Assembly (NCBI GenBank): GCA_019637915.1
Contig: JAHBUV010000001.1
Span: 558,001 to 622,000, forward strand
DNA from: Pseudobdellovibrionaceae bacterium
Lineage (GTDB): Bacteria; Bdellovibrionota; Bdellovibrionia; Bdellovibrionales; Bdellovibrionaceae
Reading direction: 5' to 3'
Length of the DNA: 64,000 bases
Numbering within the stretch: the stretch's first letter is position 1; every line of letters starts with the position of its first letter. The position numbers and the translations under genes are program-made. Below are positions 8,724-18,114 of the stretch, one piece after another. The notes beneath the pieces are model-generated. The model saw only the letters and a program-made list of their open reading frames with translations, searched no databases and was not told the DNA's origin.

Positions 8724-9593
8724 CTATTCCTCGCTCAGGGGGTGCAGTTCGTCCACGGTGCGGCTGAGGACGCCGGTCGACACGGAGGTATAAATTTGAG
8801 TTGTTTGGATGCTGGCGTGACCGAGGAGCATCTGGATGGAGCGCAGATCGGCGCCGCCTTCGAGCAGCGCCGTGGCGCAACCATGGCGGAAGCGGTGGGG
8901 GTTCACCGGCTCCGGGAATCCCGCCTTCGCCGACCAGGCGGCGAGCCAGCGCCAGATGTCGACGCGCGAGGGACGATGGCCGCGGTCGTTCACGAGGATC
9001 GCCGGCATGGGCTCCTTCAACAGATGCGGGCGCACGTCACGCAGGTAATCGCTCAGGTGATTGGCCAGAGCCTCCGTCAACGGCACCAGGCGCTCCTTGC
9101 TGCCCTTGCCGACGATGCGCACCCAGCGCTCGGTGGGATTGTAGTCGTTCAGATTCAGGCCCACGAGCTCGCTGACCCGGCAACCCAGGCCGTACAGGAA
9201 CATCAGGGTCAAACGGTTGCGGGAATCGCGGTGGGGATCGCCGCTTTCGGAGGCCGCGATGAACAGGCGGTCGAATTCCTCCGGCGTCAGGCTCTTCGGC
9301 AAGGCCACCTTGACCCGCGGCGGGCGCAGTTCGCGCAGCTCGGGGCAGGTCATGCCCTGGCCTTCGCAGAAGCGGAAGTAGGTGCGCAGGCTCGAGATGA
9401 TGCGCGCCTGCGAGCGCACCGAGAGCTTGTGCTTTTTCATGAACTCGTAGAAGCCGCCGACGTTCTTGCCGCCTTCGGCGCGGTAGTTTTTCCACAGCTC
9501 CAGGTCGCGGCGGTACGCCATGACGGTGTTGAGCGAACGGCCGCGGATGTTTTGGAGATCATCGAAGAAGTCGATCCACAGTGGCAATTCCAT
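8724..9593 (-). CDS. Xer-type tyrosine recombinase
   Basis: A 289-residue tyrosine recombinase of XerC/XerD size. An N-terminal SAM-like DNA-binding domain (about 1-95, with FFDDLQNIRGRSLNTVMAYR) precedes the catalytic domain. All catalytic residues are visible: Arg in GLGCRVSELVGL, Lys in GKGSKERLVPL, His-x-x-Arg in HRFRHGCAT, His in LLGHASIQTT and the nucleophilic Tyr in QIYTSV. Xer enzymes resolve chromosome dimers at dif. Whether this is the XerC or XerD partner cannot be decided here; an integrase function is less likely given the length and lack of phage genes. A terminator separates it from the upstream lipoprotein gene, so it is probably transcribed alone. Confidence 0.88.
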   Translation of the reverse strand: MELPLWIDFFDDLQNIRGRSLNTVMAYRRDLELWKNYRAEGGKNVGGFYEFMKKHKLSVRSQARIISSLRTYFRFCEGQGMTCPELRELRPPRVKVALPKSLTPEEFDRLFIAASESGDPHRDSRNRLTLMFLYGLGCRVSELVGLNLNDYNPTERWVRIVGKGSKERLVPLTEALANHLSDYLRDVRPHLLKEPMPAILVNDRGHRPSRVDIWRWLAAWSAKAGFPEPVNPHRFRHGCATALLEGGADLRSIQMLLGHASIQTTQIYTSVSTGVLSRTVDELHPLSEE

Positions 9594-11329: not shown

Positions 11330-11410
11330 ATGGTGACGACCAATATTTACAGCTTGATTGCGTTCATGACGGTGAGTCTCTTCGCCGCCAGAGTGTTCTT
11401 CAGCTTTTAG
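11330..11410 (+). CDS. 26-residue putative membrane peptide
   Basis: A 26-codon ORF preceded by GAGGTGATCAA, a near-ideal ribosome-binding site. The peptide is hydrophobic (IYSLIAFMTVSLFAARVFF) and could form one transmembrane helix. It ends in convergent overlap with the 3' end of the SpoIID-like gene. Only the ribosome-binding site and hydrophobicity support it; no family is known. Confidence 0.4.
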   Translation: MVTTNIYSLIAFMTVSLFAARVFFSF

Positions 11411-12564
11411 TTCCGTTTCGAAACCGGCGCGCTGAGCCGCGCCTTCGGATAATAGTGCGACAGGATTTTTTCCGCCGTCTCGCCCTTTTTTCCCATCACC
11501 TGGCTCCCCCACTGGCACAGACCCACGCCGTGACCGAAGCCCCGGCCGCGGAACTCGAGCCCCCCGTCCGATTCCTTCCAGTCGAAATTCGTGCTGCGCA
11601 ATTCCGCCGCCCCCACGGACAAACGAAATTCATTGGCATTGAGGCGCTTCACGCCGGCCGGCGTGCGCACATCGACGCCGATCACCCGCCCGTCGGCGAG
11701 CGAGGGCACGAGGCTCAGCCCCAGCACGCGCAGGCCCTGCAGGTTTTTCGCGAGCCGCGCGGTGAGTTCCCGCCAGGTGAGGCGCAAGGACCACTGCGCC
11801 GCCGGGCTGACCGGGCAGCTTTCATCGACGGCGACGCCCATGCCGGGATCGCCGCCCCACACGCGGGCCGAATCGACGGTGCGGCCGCCGCAGTCGGCGT
11901 GATAGTAGGCCTTCAGCACGCGCCGGTCCGGATCCAGCAGGATCAAACCGTCGGTGGACTTCACCGCCTCGCGGACCAGGGCCCACTCCTCGATCTTGTC
12001 GGGATCGTAGCGGAAGACCTGATCCTCCACCGTGGCCTCGAGATCCCAGGATTCCCCGCGCCGGGATTCGCGCACGGCGAGCGCGTAAGAGCGCGCCGCC
12101 ACGGTCTGGGCCTTCAAGGTTTCAAGGGGCCACTTCGGCGGCATCTCGTGGGCCACGACGCCGGTCAGATAATCGCGCAGGTTCATCGTCGCCACGATGG
12201 CGAAGCCGCCGCCCCGGGCCCGCAGGCTCAGGCGCTCCGGATAAGCCTGGCGCGGGCCGCGCAGGAATTGCCCGCGCACTTCCAGCACGGGACCGCGCAG
12301 GGTCAGACGCCGTTCCTCGCCGCCGACCTCGTCGATCTGCCAGTGATGGCGGGTCGACGACCAGCGCAGGTTCCAGCGCGATTGCCGGAGCAGATCCACC
12401 GGCGCCGTGTCGCCGATGAAGCGGAGGCCCTGGCCGGCCAGGGTGATGTCCTTCACGGATTTTTCCACCCGCACGCGCACCAGCTCCTCGACGTCGCGGC
12501 CGGGGGAAGCGCCGGCGACGGCGGGCAGAATGAGGGAAATCATCAGGGGCAGCCACAGATCCAT
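11407..12564 (-). CDS. SpoIID/LytB domain protein
   Basis: A 385-residue exported protein with a short signal peptide (about 1-19). The SpoIID/LytB domain is clear: YLTGVVAHEMPPKWPLETLKAQ and TVAARSYAL (about 134-165), YYHADCGGRT, and the C-terminal GRGFGHGVGLCQWGSQ with ILSHYYP. In sporulators SpoIID is a lytic transglycosylase acting on denuded peptidoglycan, and LytB modulates amidases; homologues in Gram-negative bacteria are thought to act on peptidoglycan. The conserved Glu of AHEMP, catalytic in SpoIID, is present. I infer cell-wall remodelling in the periplasm. It lies 39 bases downstream of the UDG-like gene on the same strand. Confidence 0.85.
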   Translation of the reverse strand: MDLWLPLMISLILPAVAGASPGRDVEELVRVRVEKSVKDITLAGQGLRFIGDTAPVDLLRQSRWNLRWSSTRHHWQIDEVGGEERRLTLRGPVLEVRGQFLRGPRQAYPERLSLRARGGGFAIVATMNLRDYLTGVVAHEMPPKWPLETLKAQTVAARSYALAVRESRRGESWDLEATVEDQVFRYDPDKIEEWALVREAVKSTDGLILLDPDRRVLKAYYHADCGGRTVDSARVWGGDPGMGVAVDESCPVSPAAQWSLRLTWRELTARLAKNLQGLRVLGLSLVPSLADGRVIGVDVRTPAGVKRLNANEFRLSVGAAELRSTNFDWKESDGGLEFRGRGFGHGVGLCQWGSQVMGKKGETAEKILSHYYPKARLSAPVSKRN

Positions 12565-12603: not shown

Positions 12604-13140
12604 CTAGTTTTTGCGGGAAGGCGCGGCGCTCGCGCCGAGGGACCTCATGACGATCTGCAGATCGCCCCAGGCCGTTCTCTTCAGATCGGGGGCCTGCAAT
12701 AAATTTTGCGGAGAAAAACTTTCCAGGACCTTGGACGGGCCCAAGACATGCAGTTCCGGCCGGCGATTCGGCGCCGGCGACAGAATCAGCGAGACCGCGG
12801 CGGGATAGGTTTCCAGCACCTGCAACAGCACGCCCTCCAGATCCTCGCGGGCGGTCTCGATCTCCAGCACGCGCCGCGAACCGAGGTTCATGGCGCCTTT
12901 CATCTTGTCCCACAGCTCGGCGGTCTCGCCCTGGAAGAGCGCGCCCTCGCCGGCGTGAAGCACCAGCAGATCGAATTCCTGCGGCGGCGGCCAATGCCCC
13001 GTGCGGGTGTGGGCGACGGGCGTGAGTTCGCGCTCCGGCTGATCGGTCGCGCGCGGCTGGATGACCTGGTTCACGCCCAGGACGTCCTTCACGTATTGCA
13101 GGTAATCTTGCACCTCATCGCTCACGTCCTGGTGATACAC
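12604..13140 (-). CDS. Degenerate uracil-DNA glycosylase (family 4/5)-like protein, probably non-catalytic
   Basis: The C-terminus, NLLQAPDLKRTAWGDLQIVM, closely resembles the end of family 4 uracil-DNA glycosylases (HPAYLLRxPxxKRxxWxDLQxVM), and LFQGETAELWDKMKGAMNL resembles their PFVGxAGxLLDKML segment. The catalytic elements look lost: GEAPG is replaced by HAGEGAL and the HP of HPxxLLR is SP. FeS cysteines are absent. I infer a UDG-fold protein without glycosylase activity. A GTG start at 13140 is preferred (GGCGGGGG upstream; the family-like sequence begins there); an ATG at 13254 would add 38 unconvincing residues and overlap the divergent promoter region. Assignment is by eye. Confidence 0.6.
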   Translation of the reverse strand: MYHQDVSDEVQDYLQYVKDVLGVNQVIQPRATDQPERELTPVAHTRTGHWPPPQEFDLLVLHAGEGALFQGETAELWDKMKGAMNLGSRRVLEIETAREDLEGVLLQVLETYPAAVSLILSPAPNRRPELHVLGPSKVLESFSPQNLLQAPDLKRTAWGDLQIVMRSLGASAAPSRKN

Positions 13141-13268: not shown

Positions 13269-13475
13269 ATGGAGATCTTTCGTTTCAACATCTCTCATCA
13301 CGAGGAACTGAACCGCCAGGAAACCTTCAAACAAAGCGTCAACCTCTGCCCCGCCTGCGGCACCGTGAAGAACTTCGAAGTGCAATTCACCCTGGAAGCC
13401 AAAACCGAAGTGCACGAGGTCGCCGACTGCCCCGCTTGCGGCCACACGGCCGCGTCGTTTCACCCGGTGCATTGA
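13269..13475 (+). CDS. Small zinc-ribbon protein
   Basis: A 68-residue protein with two CPACG knuckles (about residues 27-31 and 54-58), typical of a four-cysteine zinc ribbon, followed by two histidines at the C-terminus. The start is preceded by AAGGAGCAGG. It is transcribed divergently from the UDG-like gene and followed three bases after its stop by a 7-bp GC-rich stem. The function is unknown; zinc-mediated nucleic-acid or protein binding is the general expectation for such ribbons. Confidence 0.8.
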   Translation: MEIFRFNISHHEELNRQETFKQSVNLCPACGTVKNFEVQFTLEAKTEVHEVADCPACGHTAASFHPVH

Positions 13476-13764: not shown

Positions 13765-14085
13765 ATGAATAAGAAAAAGGATTCCGATTTATCGGCGATG
13801 GAAAAAAAGATGTCCCAAGATCCTTCCTGGAAGTCCGCCGGCAAGGAACGGCTTCACCGCGCCAAAAATAAAATCGAAGAGGCCGTCCAGCAACTGAAGG
13901 ACGAGCGCGTGAACATCCGTTTTTCCAAGGACGATCTGAGCGCGCTGAAACAACGGGCGATCGCGGAAGGCATCCCTTACCAGACTCTGCTGGGCAGCAT
14001 CGTTCACCGCTACGTCACCGGCCGTCTGGTCGACGTGGAGGATGCGCGGATGGCCCTGGAGGCCTTGCTGAAAAAGCGCGGCTGA
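13765..14085 (+). CDS. CopG/BrnA-like antitoxin-type DNA-binding protein, without a toxin partner
   Basis: A 106-residue protein whose C-terminal half (about 52-85) reads VNIRFSKDDLSALKQRAIAE then GIPYQTLLGSIVHRYVTGRL, the ribbon-helix-helix pattern shared by CopG-type antitoxins such as BrnA-like proteins. The N-terminal half is charged and helical. The start follows GGAGG. Such antitoxins normally sit next to a toxin gene, but the neighbours are a zinc-ribbon gene and, convergently, uvrC, so this looks like an orphan regulator or a TA remnant. Autoregulation at the upstream dyad is plausible. Confidence 0.72.
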   Translation: MNKKKDSDLSAMEKKMSQDPSWKSAGKERLHRAKNKIEEAVQQLKDERVNIRFSKDDLSALKQRAIAEGIPYQTLLGSIVHRYVTGRLVDVEDARMALEALLKKRG

Positions 14086-14088
14086 GCT

Positions 14089-16017
14089 TCAGTCGACCGG
14101 GATCTTGAAGCCCGGCGAGGTGTCGGCGTCGAGGTCTTCCTTCTCCCCGCCGTCGTCCTCGTCGTTCAGGTGGAGCAGGATGCGCTCGGCGAGCACGCGG
14201 TGGAAGCCCTTGATCTGGGCGATCTCTTCCGGGTCGGCGGCGCGGATCTCCTCCACCGAGCCGAACCGCTGCAGCAGGGCCTGCTTGCGTTTTTCCCCCA
14301 GCCCCACGATGGCGTCGAGCTCGCTCGACAGGCTCGTGTTCTCGCGCAGCTTGCGGTGATAGGTGATGGCGAAGCGGTGGGCCTCGTCGCGGATGCCGAC
14401 GAGAATGTGCAGGCCCTCCGAGTTCGAGCGGAAGGTCACGGGGTTCGAACGCCCCGGCAGGAAAAAACGCTCTTCCGTCGAGCGCACCTCGCGGGCCTGG
14501 AAATCGCTCTCGGTGCGGGCCTTGGCGAGACCGACCACCGGGATGTCCTTGCGGCCGATCTCCTCGAGAATGCGCAGGGCCTGCGTCAGCTGCCCCTTGC
14601 CGCCGTCGATGACGAGCAGATCCGGGTTCTCGTACTCGGTGTGGCGGAAACGCCGCGAGAGGACCTCGCGCATGGAGGCGAAGTCGTCCGTGCCGACGAC
14701 GGTCTTGATCTTGTAACGCCGGTAATGCTCGCGGGCCGGCACGCCGTCCTCGAAAACCACCTGCGAGGCCACCGTCTCCGCCCCCTGGAACGTCGAGATG
14801 TCGTAGCACTCGATGCGGCGGGGCCGCGCCGGCAGGTGCAGCTTCTCCCTGATCTCATCGAGGCCCGCCATCTTCTCTTCCGATTTCGAGACGTACTTGG
14901 CGAAATGCGCCTCGGCGTTGCGTTCGGCCATGTCGACGAGCTCGCGGCCCTTCTCGCCGACGGCGAAGCGCACCGTCGCCGCGTGGCCCGAGCGCTCCTT
15001 CAAGACGGCCTCCAGCAGCTTCATCATGTCGCTGCCGATCTCGGCGCCGAGCAGGACCTCGTCCGGGATGAAGTTGTCCTCGTAGTACTGGTTGGCGAAA
15101 TCCACCAGCCACTCGCGCACGTCCTCCAACGGATCATGGGGGTCGATCTGCGGCAGGAAGTGCGAGCGCGTGCCCAGCACCCGGCCGGCGCGCACGTGCA
15201 CGGTCTCAACCAACGTGCCGCGCTCGTCGCCGAAGAACCCGATCGCGTCCTGGTCCTTGTCGCTCGTGTCGTTGATGACGGCCTGCTTCTGCAGGATGGC
15301 CTTCACCGCCTCGATGGAATCCCGCAGGCGCGCCGCCACCTCGAATTTCTCCTCGTCGGCGGATTTCATCATGCGCTCCTTGAGGGCGGCCAGCACCTTG
15401 CGGTTCTGGCCCTTCAGGAACAGTTTCGCGCCCTCGACCTCGTGACGGTACTCCTCGCGGCTCACGTAGCGCACGCAAGGGGCCGAGCAGCGCCCGATCT
15501 GATGGGTCAGGCAGGGCCGCGTGCGCGTGCGGAACATGACGTCCGTGCAGTCGCGGATCTTGAACGTGCGGTTGAGGAAACGGATCGTGCCGTGCACGGC
15601 GAAGCCGCTCGTGTAAGGGCCGAAGTACAAAGACCCGTCCTTCTTCACCTTGCGCGCCAGGTACAACCGCGGGAAATCGTCGTTCCAGCTGAACTTGATG
15701 TAGGGGTAAGCCTTGTCGTCGCGCAGCCGGATGTTGTACTTCGGCCGGTGCTTCTTGATCAGCGAGGCCTCCAGCAGGAAGGCCTCCACCTCGGTCTTCG
15801 TCAGGATGTACTCGATCTCGTTCAGGGCCTGCACGAGGAGCCGCGTCTTCGGCGTGAGCTCGCCCTCGCCCAGGTAGGAGCGCACGCGGTTGCGCAGGTT
15901 CTTCGCCTTGCCGACGTAGATGATCTTCTCGGCGGCGTTTTTCATGATGTAAACGCCGCTCTGAGTGGGGAAATCGCGAACCTTGAGGCGCAGTTCCTCA
16001 GTCCGACTTGAGGCCAT
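14089..16017 (-). CDS. uvrC: Excinuclease ABC subunit C
   Basis: A 642-residue UvrC, normal length. The GIY-YIG nuclease domain is N-terminal ([25 protein letters not shown]), followed by a cysteine cluster region (CSAPC), a UVR domain ([16 protein letters not shown], about 215-232), the RNase H-like 5' nuclease domain ([16 protein letters not shown]), and a C-terminal helix-hairpin-helix pair ([20 protein letters not shown]). UvrC makes both incisions around a lesion in nucleotide-excision repair after UvrB loading. Its start lies inside the 3' end of uvrB (20-base overlap), implying translational coupling. Confidence 0.97.
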
Positions 16018-18079
16018 GATCGATCACCCGTTGGCTGTCCTTCTCGGTTTCCCCGGAGTGCAGGGAAAGCTCGAGAATCTGCAGCCGTTTGATTTCGTCG
16101 CGGATCTTCGCGGCCTCCTCGAATTCGAGTTTCTTCGACAGGGCCCGCATCTTTTCCCGCAGCTTCTCGATCTCCTTCTGGATTTTGCTGGGGTCACCGG
16201 AGAGTTTCGCGAGGCCCGTCTTCTCCGCCCCGCCGTCCAGCAGGCGCGTCGCCGGAGAGCCGTCGTACAGATCGCCCAGCCCCTCGCGGATGCGCTTGCG
16301 GATGGTCACCGGCGTGATGCCGTGGAGGGCGTTGTACTCCTCCTGGATGCGGCGACGGCGATCCGTCTCGGCCACGGCCTTTTTGATGGAATCCGTCTCC
16401 ACGTCGGCGTAGAGGATGACCCGGCCGTTGGCGTTGCGCGCCGCCCGGCCGATGGTTTGGATCAAAGAGCGCTCGGAGCGCAGGAAGCCCTCCTTGTCGG
16501 CGTCGGTGATCCCCACCAGGGAGACCTCCGGGATGTCCAACCCCTCGCGCAGCAGGTTGATGCCGACGAGCACGTCGAACACGCCCAGGCGCAGATCGCG
16601 CAGGATCTCGGAGCGCTCGATGGTGGCGATGTCCGAGTGCAGGTACTTGACCTTGACGCCCACCGATTCCAGGTACTCGGTCAGATCCTCGGAGGAACGC
16701 TTCGTCAGCGTCGTGATCAGCACGCGCTCCTTGAGCCCGATGCGCAGGCGGATCTCCTTCAGCAGGTCGTCCACCTGGTGGCGCACCGGGCGGATCTCGA
16801 TGATCGGATCCACGAGGCCCGTCGGGCGGATGATCTGCTCGACGATGATGCCCTCGGATTTCTGCAGCTCGTAGGCCCCCGGGGTCGCCGAGACGTAGAC
16901 GACCTTGTCCATCAGGCCCTCGAACTCCTGGAAATTCAGCGGCCGGTTGTCGAGGGCGCTGGGCAGGCGGAAGCCGTGCTCCACCAGGGTTTTCTTGCGG
17001 GCCTGGTCGCCGCGGTACATGCCGCCGATCTGCGGGATGGTGACGTGGGACTCGTCGACGAAGGTCACGAACTCGTTCGGGAAATACTCGAGCAGGGTCG
17101 GCGGCGGCTCGCCGGGCCCGCGGCCGGTGAGGTGGCGCGAGTAGTTCTCGATGCCCTGGCAGAAACCCATCTGCTCCATCATCTCGATGTCGTAGTAGGT
17201 GCGCTGCTCGAGGCGCTGGGCCTCGAGCAGTTTCAATTCCGTGTTGAGTTTTTTCAGATGAACCTGCAGCTCGTCCTGGATGGTGCGGACGGCGCGTTTC
17301 AGGTCCTCGTCCCCGGTCGCGTAGTGGGAGCCGGGATAGATGCCGATCTGATCGAGCTCGTCGAGGACCTGGCCCGTCACCGGGTCCACCCAGGAGATGC
17401 GCTCGATGAAATCGCCGAAGAACTCGATGCGGATGACCTTGTCCTCCTCGTAAGGGGGGAAGACCTCGACGATGTCGCCGCGCACGCGCACCGTGCCGCG
17501 GTGGAAATCGACGTTGTTGCGCTGGTACTGAATGCGCACGAGCTCGCGCAGCAACTGGTCGCGCTTCATCTCCGTGTTCGCCGCCACCTGGATCATCATG
17601 CCCTCGTAGGCTTCGGGGCTGCCGAGACCGTAGATGCAGGACACGGAGCTGACGATGATGACGTCGCGGCGGTCGAAAAGCGATCTCGTCGCCGAGTGGC
17701 GCATGCGCTCGATCTGCTCGTTGATGGCGGAGTCCTTTTCGATGTAGGTGTCCGAGGACGGGATGTAGGCTTCCGGCTGGTAATAATCGTAGTAGGAAAC
17801 GAAGTACTCGACGGCGTTGTGCGGGAAGAGCTCCTTAAACTCCGCGTAAAGCTGCGCCGCCAGGGTCTTGTTCGGCGCCAGCACCAGGGCCGGCTGATTC
17901 AGCTGCGCGATGACGTGGGCCATGGAGAAGGTCTTCCCCGAGCCGGTCACGCCCAGCAGAGTCTGGTGCTTCAGGCCCTGGGAGAAGTTCTGCACCATCT
18001 GCTCGATGGCCTTCGGCTGATCCCCGGACGGCTGGAAGTCCGACTTGAGCTGGAAATTCTTTTTGTACTGCCGTGACAT
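15998..18079 (-). CDS. uvrB: Excinuclease ABC subunit B
   Basis: A 693-residue UvrB helicase. Walker A is [14 protein letters not shown] near residue 45, the beta-hairpin region [18 protein letters not shown] is intact, the DExH box is TFVDESHV, helicase motif VI is [10 protein letters not shown], and the C-terminal UVR domain ([17 protein letters not shown]) that binds UvrC is present. UvrB verifies DNA damage delivered by UvrA and recruits UvrC. The ATG at 18079 is preferred over TTG one codon earlier; GAGG lies upstream. It is followed by overlapping uvrC and preceded by cysS 35 bases upstream. uvrA is not in the window. Confidence 0.97.
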
Positions 18080-18114
18080 CAAGGACCTCGTGGGGTCGCG
18101 ACCATGCGCCCCGG

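Follow-up and report, generated by a model that had tools for sequence, protein, structure and literature searches.

What role could a protein retain that resembles a repair glycosylase from which the catalytic residues have gone? The question is raised by a minus-strand gene of a Pseudobdellovibrionaceae bacterium, located within a stretch of 64,000 nucleotides (the window) whose preliminary description, made from the letters alone, had proposed a UDG-fold protein that has lost its catalytic motifs. Computation established the fold and ancestry of the protein, the disappearance of its catalytic residues, the selection acting on the gene and its synteny. The gene is an orthologue of family-4 uracil-DNA glycosylase (UDG4) at the ancestral locus, and on balance its product probably acts now as a replisome accessory akin to psi (HolD), a small subunit of the DNA polymerase III clamp loader.

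Gene and protein layout

The minus-strand frame between 12604 and 13140 is open without interruption. The GTG at 13125 is the likelier start as its position in the alignment coincides with the initiating ATG of a same-genus orthologue in locus L002 (Table 1). Relatives were sought in 59 genomes, including that of the bacterium itself, and 35 of these yielded matches at E≤1, many of them weak. Alignment A1 consists of 22 frames: the window protein and 21 relatives. Of 30 loci, nine were set aside: L001, which is the window; L004 and L005, which scarcely differ from L003; L014, a fragment at the end of a contig; L025 and L030, which on visual inspection encode other proteins; and the weak matches L022, L027 and L029. 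Family members outside the genus share 19–35% identity with the window protein. Among 290 genomes of the phylum, 246 gave a profile match at E≤0.1, and these matches include intact UDGs.

The AlphaFold model obtained with A1 (pLDDT 83.7) has a confident alpha/beta core. A helix spans residues 4–16 at the N-terminus, and a low-confidence stretch follows at residues 24–42, within which residues 24–26 and 28–42 of the linker have pLDDT values <50. Gly-17 of the N-terminal peptide is invariant in A1 (22/22), as are Lys-149 and Trp-153 in the part of the C-terminal signature that aligns with UDG4 (22/22 each).

Table 1. Features of the pseudo-UDG4 locus in window coordinates.
Feature	Position	Strand	Remarks
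SpoIID-domain gene	11407..12564	-	PF08486, E 4.9e-22; conserved neighbour, also beside relatives' copies
Pseudo-UDG4 gene	12604..13125	-	173 aa; likely start GTG 13125; stop TAG 12604-12606
UDG-fold core, residues 45-166	12628..12993	-	per-block pLDDT 77-97; region of the Foldseek and VIA-align matches
C-terminal signature ESFSPQNLLQAPDLKRTAWGDLQIVMRSL, residues 135-163	12637..12723	-	counterpart of the UDG4 TYHPxYLLRNPxxKxxxWxDLxxVM region
Ser138 codon	12712..12714	-	position of the UDG4 catalytic His, by alignment to intact UDG4
Linker, residues 19-44	12994..13071	-	mostly low model confidence
N-terminal helix peptide YLQYVKDVLGV, residues 8-18	13072..13104	-	proposed docking peptide
uvrC	14089..16017	-	Pfam UvrC domains; conserved neighbour on the other side
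uvrB	15998..18082	-	Pfam UvrB domains; upstream of the pseudo-UDG4 gene, same strand

Relationship to family-4 UDG

The window protein alone produced no UDG match in Pfam or NCBIfam scans. Among the 22 family members, the Pfam UDG model (PF03167) matched eight (best E 9.4e-4) and the NCBIfam model UDG_fam4 matched ten (best E 0.0041). Profile-profile comparison of the window family with 30 intact UDG4s gave a score of 71.4, and 100 column shuffles reached no more than 20.1. The strong C-terminal likeness to family-4 UDG noted in the preliminary description is therefore beyond chance. When PDB sequences were searched, the window protein gave one meaningless match (E 1.3) and the A1 profile recovered only the UDG 4zbx, also at E 1.3. 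Structural searches with the window model returned the T. thermophilus family-4 UDG 1ui1 as the top Foldseek match (E 1.7e-5). VIA-align superposed the model on 1ui0 (Z 10.4, rmsd 3.4 over 122 residues) and on 4zby (Z 10.1), and its first 49 rows were all UDG-superfamily chains. The model overlay bears out the proposed relation to the UDG superfamily, and a UDG fold for the window protein is supported by modeling.

The fold and the C-terminal signature are common to family-4 UDG (UDGa; TIGR00758; PDB 1ui0 and 4zbx) and the window protein. The helix (E)LLxKMxxAMxL and the gene position in the phylum also are shared by family-4 UDG and the window family. Based on profile similarity and gene position, the window protein and family-4 UDG are related by common descent.

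Loss of catalytic residues

Whereas family-4 UDG possesses FeS cysteines, motif 1, motif 3 and a catalytic histidine, the window protein is devoid of these elements. The 173-residue protein contains no cysteine, and alignment to intact UDG4 leaves gaps at all four FeS-cysteine positions, at the motif-1 Glu and at the motif-3 Asn. Motif 1 (GE[AG]PG) is missing, and Ser-138 replaces the catalytic His of motif 2. The equivalent change in T. thermophilus UDGa, H155S, lowers k2/Km from 2.4e5 to 9.4e1 according to an excerpt of the published study (PMC5387724). Eighty-two sequences were classified by these positions, comprising the 22 of A1 and 60 picked by hand from the phylum-wide profile matches to cover the families, a sample that is not random; 20 were intact, nine partial and 53 degenerate. 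All 30 classified sequences from the window's order (families f1–f10) were degenerate, and the catalytic-His column within the order contains S, G, T, D, E, N, H or a gap. Intact and degenerate forms reside side by side in families f13, f16, f17 and f21, a mixture which indicates that catalysis probably was lost several times. Judged on its sequence, the window gene product is a pseudo-UDG4 whose catalytic residues have been lost. The same genome also encodes an ordinary family-1 UNG. The absence of the catalytic motifs and FeS cysteines described initially is confirmed, and the altered motif positions, when compared across orthologues, proved to be degenerate in every sequence classified from the window's order.

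Additional pseudo-UDG forms were noticed. Outside the window, the genome contains a UDG-domain match (E 3.3e-6; G000:C1:1443398-1443673) within a 560-aa frame, and similar long frames are present in several relatives. Family f18 (L218, L219, L300–L307) is composed of long pseudo-UDG frames of about 267–318 aa with a different N-terminal region; the motifs are mostly degenerate and L304 retains all four cysteines. Families f17 and f21 possess another N-terminal motif, roughly LPxxAxVMxRK, that is common to intact and degenerate UDG4s (L224, L228, L229, L230, L234, L237, L270, L274, L280, L287, L288, L297 and L299).

Selection and gene neighborhood

The dN/dS ratio in genus g6 was 0.009–0.116 (median 0.075) across 13 usable pairs, which are those of the 171 pairs of 19 sequences with dS of 0.05–1.5, computed on the full frame from stop to stop. 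The gene was matched in every genus-g6 genome listed. The low dN/dS values imply that the window protein is functional and under strong purifying selection instead of being a relic. The earlier proposal of a protein that is conserved although apparently inactive fits these values and the uniform degeneracy predicted from sequence in the order.

Searches with tblastn of the window neighbors against the loci of relatives revealed that uvrC adjoins two intact UDG4s (L225 and L292) and the partial form L222, that spoIID adjoins the intact UDG4 L278, and that uvrC or spoIID is next to many degenerate family members. The flanks searched were about 0.5–1.5 kb so that absence of a neighbor means little. 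As uvrC and spoIID flank intact UDG4s too, the window gene occupies the ancestral UDG4 locus. The preliminary description correctly placed the gene beside a SpoIID-like gene, but it misleads in stating that the gene lies outside a repair operon, because uvrC and uvrB are adjacent and because uvrC or spoIID also accompany the intact UDG4s of the phylum. The N-terminal helix peptide of the family also is present in L225 and L278, which are intact UDG4s of the same class (0/500 shuffles as high for each).

Other genes were observed in the vicinity. A 68-aa zinc-ribbon-like protein with two CxxC pairs is encoded divergently from the pseudo-UDG4 gene (13269-13475, plus strand), and a relative of this protein is located near the pseudo-UDG4 gene in many genus-g6 loci. 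A 106-aa protein encoded between the pseudo-UDG4 gene and uvrC (13765-14085, plus strand) bears a weak resemblance to CopG/BrnA antitoxins (E 4.6e-4, below cut-off); among the loci tested, only the window has a copy. A tyrosine recombinase of the phage integrase family (Pfam E 2.8e-37) is specified by positions 8724-9593 on the minus strand.

Comparison of the window family with psi

Both ends of the window protein are reminiscent of HolD, which prompted the comparison with psi. Psi (HolD, PF03603; PDB 1em8 and 3sxu) and the window protein display profile similarity over the core and, at a borderline level, over the peptide, and are alike in the order of an N-terminal helix, a linker and a small alpha/beta core without catalytic residues. 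A strict psi set of 29 sequences matched the window family with P 85.7%, E 5.4e-6 and a score of 40.4 (maximum 18.2 in 100 column shuffles), and full-length profile comparison of A1 with a 30-sequence psi alignment (A2) gave P 93.4% and E 2.5e-7. The core of the window family alone matched psi with E 6.7e-7 and a score of 43.5 (maximum 15.6; 0/50 shuffles as high). Control comparisons with reversed alignments, family-1 UNG and RimI gave probabilities <1.7% throughout.

Similarity was fainter with fixed models: each of four psi models from Pfam and NCBIfam weakly matched one A1 member (E 0.046 to 0.13), PF03603 matched 1/22 family members (E 0.049), and a search for PF03603 in the bacterium's own genome found nothing at E≤10. 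Single-sequence comparison of the window protein with E. coli HolD gave no alignment at E≤100. Solved psi structures are absent among the matches listed for the window model by Foldseek and VIA-align, which excludes nothing.

The peptides were compared separately. A psi-peptide matrix recognized 0/22 window-family N-termini at p<0.05. The peptide-only profile of the window family scored 9.7 against psi, a borderline result with 0/100 shuffles as high and a maximum of 9.2, and scored 9.3 against UDG4 peptides, with 3/100 shuffles as high. The window-family peptide matrix recognized 5/22 motif-filtered UDG4s of the phylum (L225, L227, L268, L278 and L281), 5/30 gammaproteobacterial UDG4s and 0/29 psi sequences at p<0.05. 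The psi peptide includes Trp and Arg, both of which are lacking in the window-family peptide. Chi (PF04364) had no match over the cut-off in 39/39 genomes including that of the bacterium, a search that a very divergent chi would escape, and rimI was beside 0/88 tested loci of the phylum, a set in which at least 13 loci do not belong to the window family. Thus, unlike psi, the window family has neither a detected chi nor a rimI neighbor and falls below PF03603 detection. With chi undetected, no rimI neighbor, a borderline peptide match and N-termini that the psi matrix does not recognize, the window family is not assigned to HolD.

Psi and family-4 UDG in Gammaproteobacteria

PF03603 was found in 44/79 genomes of the order to which an Escherichia genome belongs and in 8/185 of its class. 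GTDB places the former Betaproteobacteria in Gammaproteobacteria. Comparison of psi with 30 intact UDG4s using hhalign gave E 4.7e-7 and a score of 48.8 (maximum 19.8 in 100 shuffles); values were E 2.3e-12 for the peptide alone and E 0.0019 for the core alone (0/50 shuffles as high). VIA-align with a psi model (pLDDT 83.2) recovered psi crystal structures first (Z 20.7 and 20.2), followed by the family-4 UDGs 4zby (Z 6.7, rmsd 3.7, 109 residues), 1ui1 (Z 5.8) and 1vk2 (Z 5.6), with UdgX further down the ranking and the first unrelated chain at Z 5.1. The psi-UDG Z values of 5.5–6.7 are modest and the argument rests on the ranking. In Foldseek alone, no UDG was among the best 50 matches listed for the psi model; UDGs appeared only in the VIA rerank.

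In a search of the class, UDG4 (TIGR00758) was present in 133/171 genomes, from which the best-scoring 30 loci formed the gammaproteobacterial sample. A psi-like peptide, typically YLxAMGIxxWxxR, is situated at the N-terminus of all 30. The strict-psi peptide matrix recognized 30/30 at p<0.05 and 28/30 at p<0.01, compared to 0/15 UNG and 4/59 RimI controls at p<0.05. The rimI gene follows UDG4 in the same orientation in 24 of these 30 loci, and was found in 116/119 HolD loci, many of which are from close enterobacterial relatives. HolD and UDG4 occurred together in 0/171 genomes, eight of which have HolD. Chi was detected in 144 of the 171, comprising 123 genomes with UDG4, four with HolD and 17 with neither; as these genomes are related, Fisher values are unsafe and the counts are relied on.

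An origin of psi as a dead UDG4 at the rimI locus predicts that one is concealed there in the 17 genomes with chi only, and this prediction was checked. The psi profile matched at E≤1 in 6/17 of these genomes, and RimI was located in 15/17. The frame upstream of rimI exhibited both the peptide and the C-terminal K..W pattern in 7/15 loci and at least one of the two in 13/15; the patterns are loose, and in L318 and L320, which are two of the seven, the N-terminal match is upstream of the likely peptide. The clearest case is L324, in which the peptide LRRQYLHAMGIDVW accompanies a degraded motif 1 and a retained YHPAWLLRNP; PF03167 matched with E 6.8e-7, above the cut-off, and the psi profile matched at the same place (L310) with E 8.1e-4. 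These features indicate that a half-way form between UDG4 and psi exists. In the divergent psi alignment, 1/13 members matches PF03167 (E 0.0016). The N-terminus of psi binds DnaX, as stated in portions of two reports (PMC3290774; PMC3197488), and an excerpt of the second describes ssDNA binding by P. aeruginosa psi (PMC3197488), a property that would suit a UDG ancestry. In the literature searched, no link between psi and UDG was evident from titles and the starts of abstracts, and mentions of uracil in two of the papers concerned other matters.

Proposed role and alternative explanations

The suggestion in the preliminary description of a DNA-binding or inhibitor-like factor can be sharpened to a psi-like clamp-loader accessory, as we infer from the comparisons above. 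The FeS cluster and active site of UDG4 were probably lost in the ancestor of the window's order while purifying selection stayed strong. The N-terminal helix (YLxxVLGxxxx) may attach the protein to a component of the replisome, with the DnaX collar as the likeliest site, much as the psi peptide does. A flexible linker would follow the docking helix, and the dead UDG core may provide a platform that binds protein or ssDNA. A precedent is the vaccinia virus UDG, a protein of UDG fold that, with A20, contributes to a replication complex in a way that does not depend on catalysis (PMC1936997); unlike the window protein, it is viral and a polymerase processivity factor, and so serves as precedent only.

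A broader proposition, for which the chances appear even, is that psi itself is a family-4 UDG without catalysis, that the active UDG4 of Gammaproteobacteria is the 'missing psi' of genomes that have chi, and that the window's order independently converted the dead enzyme into a replisome part. If so, an active UDG4 with the same clamp-loader peptide and at the same locus before rimI would be present in most Gammaproteobacteria in the GTDB sense, and the conversion in the window's order would rank among several losses of this kind within its phylum.

The most credible alternative, albeit an unlikely one, is that the pseudo-UDG4 still serves repair by binding DNA or sensing damage, for instance together with UvrC, and has no connection with the clamp loader. 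The adjacency of uvrB and uvrC and the recurrence of the uvrC linkage in relatives are in line with this role, as are the DNA-binding nature of the UDG core and the failure to detect chi in relatives. However, motifs 1–3 are gone, the core similarity to psi is significant, and the uvrC and spoIID linkage extends to intact UDG4 which points to ancestry and not to a new role with UvrC. Less probable still, the N-terminal helix docks a different replisome partner, such as SSB, the sliding clamp or primase, making the protein an accessory that is not psi-like. The borderline similarity of the peptide to that of psi is compatible with this arrangement, and the same core carries a quite different N-terminal motif in other families of the phylum; the N-terminal region of families f17, f18 and f21 is of another kind than that of the window family, which counts against the psi-like reading. 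Nevertheless, the helix, the Leu-Gly-hydrophobic motif, the low-confidence linker and the core succeed each other as in psi. Retention of glycosylase activity through other residues is very improbable: catalytic residues do vary among UDG families, as part of one study describes (PMC5387724), but here all catalytic positions are absent at once with no consistent replacement in the order, and the genome has family-1 UNG. That the gene is decaying without function, for which the low identity among family members might speak, is scarcely credible in view of the dN/dS values and its presence in every genus-g6 genome listed.

Implications

Chi occurs in genomes in which psi cannot be found, according to a review (PMC3290774) and a study of Pseudomonas chi and psi (PMC3197488). 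If the psi peptide is present in UDG4 and psi is itself a UDG4 without catalysis, this gap of chi without psi would be closed, a base-excision repair enzyme would count among the subunits of the clamp loader, and the evolutionary source of one replisome component would be accounted for. An active UDG4 that bears the clamp-loader peptide would place uracil repair on the replisome. The window family would then represent an independent natural experiment in which the scaffold outlived the glycosylase activity.
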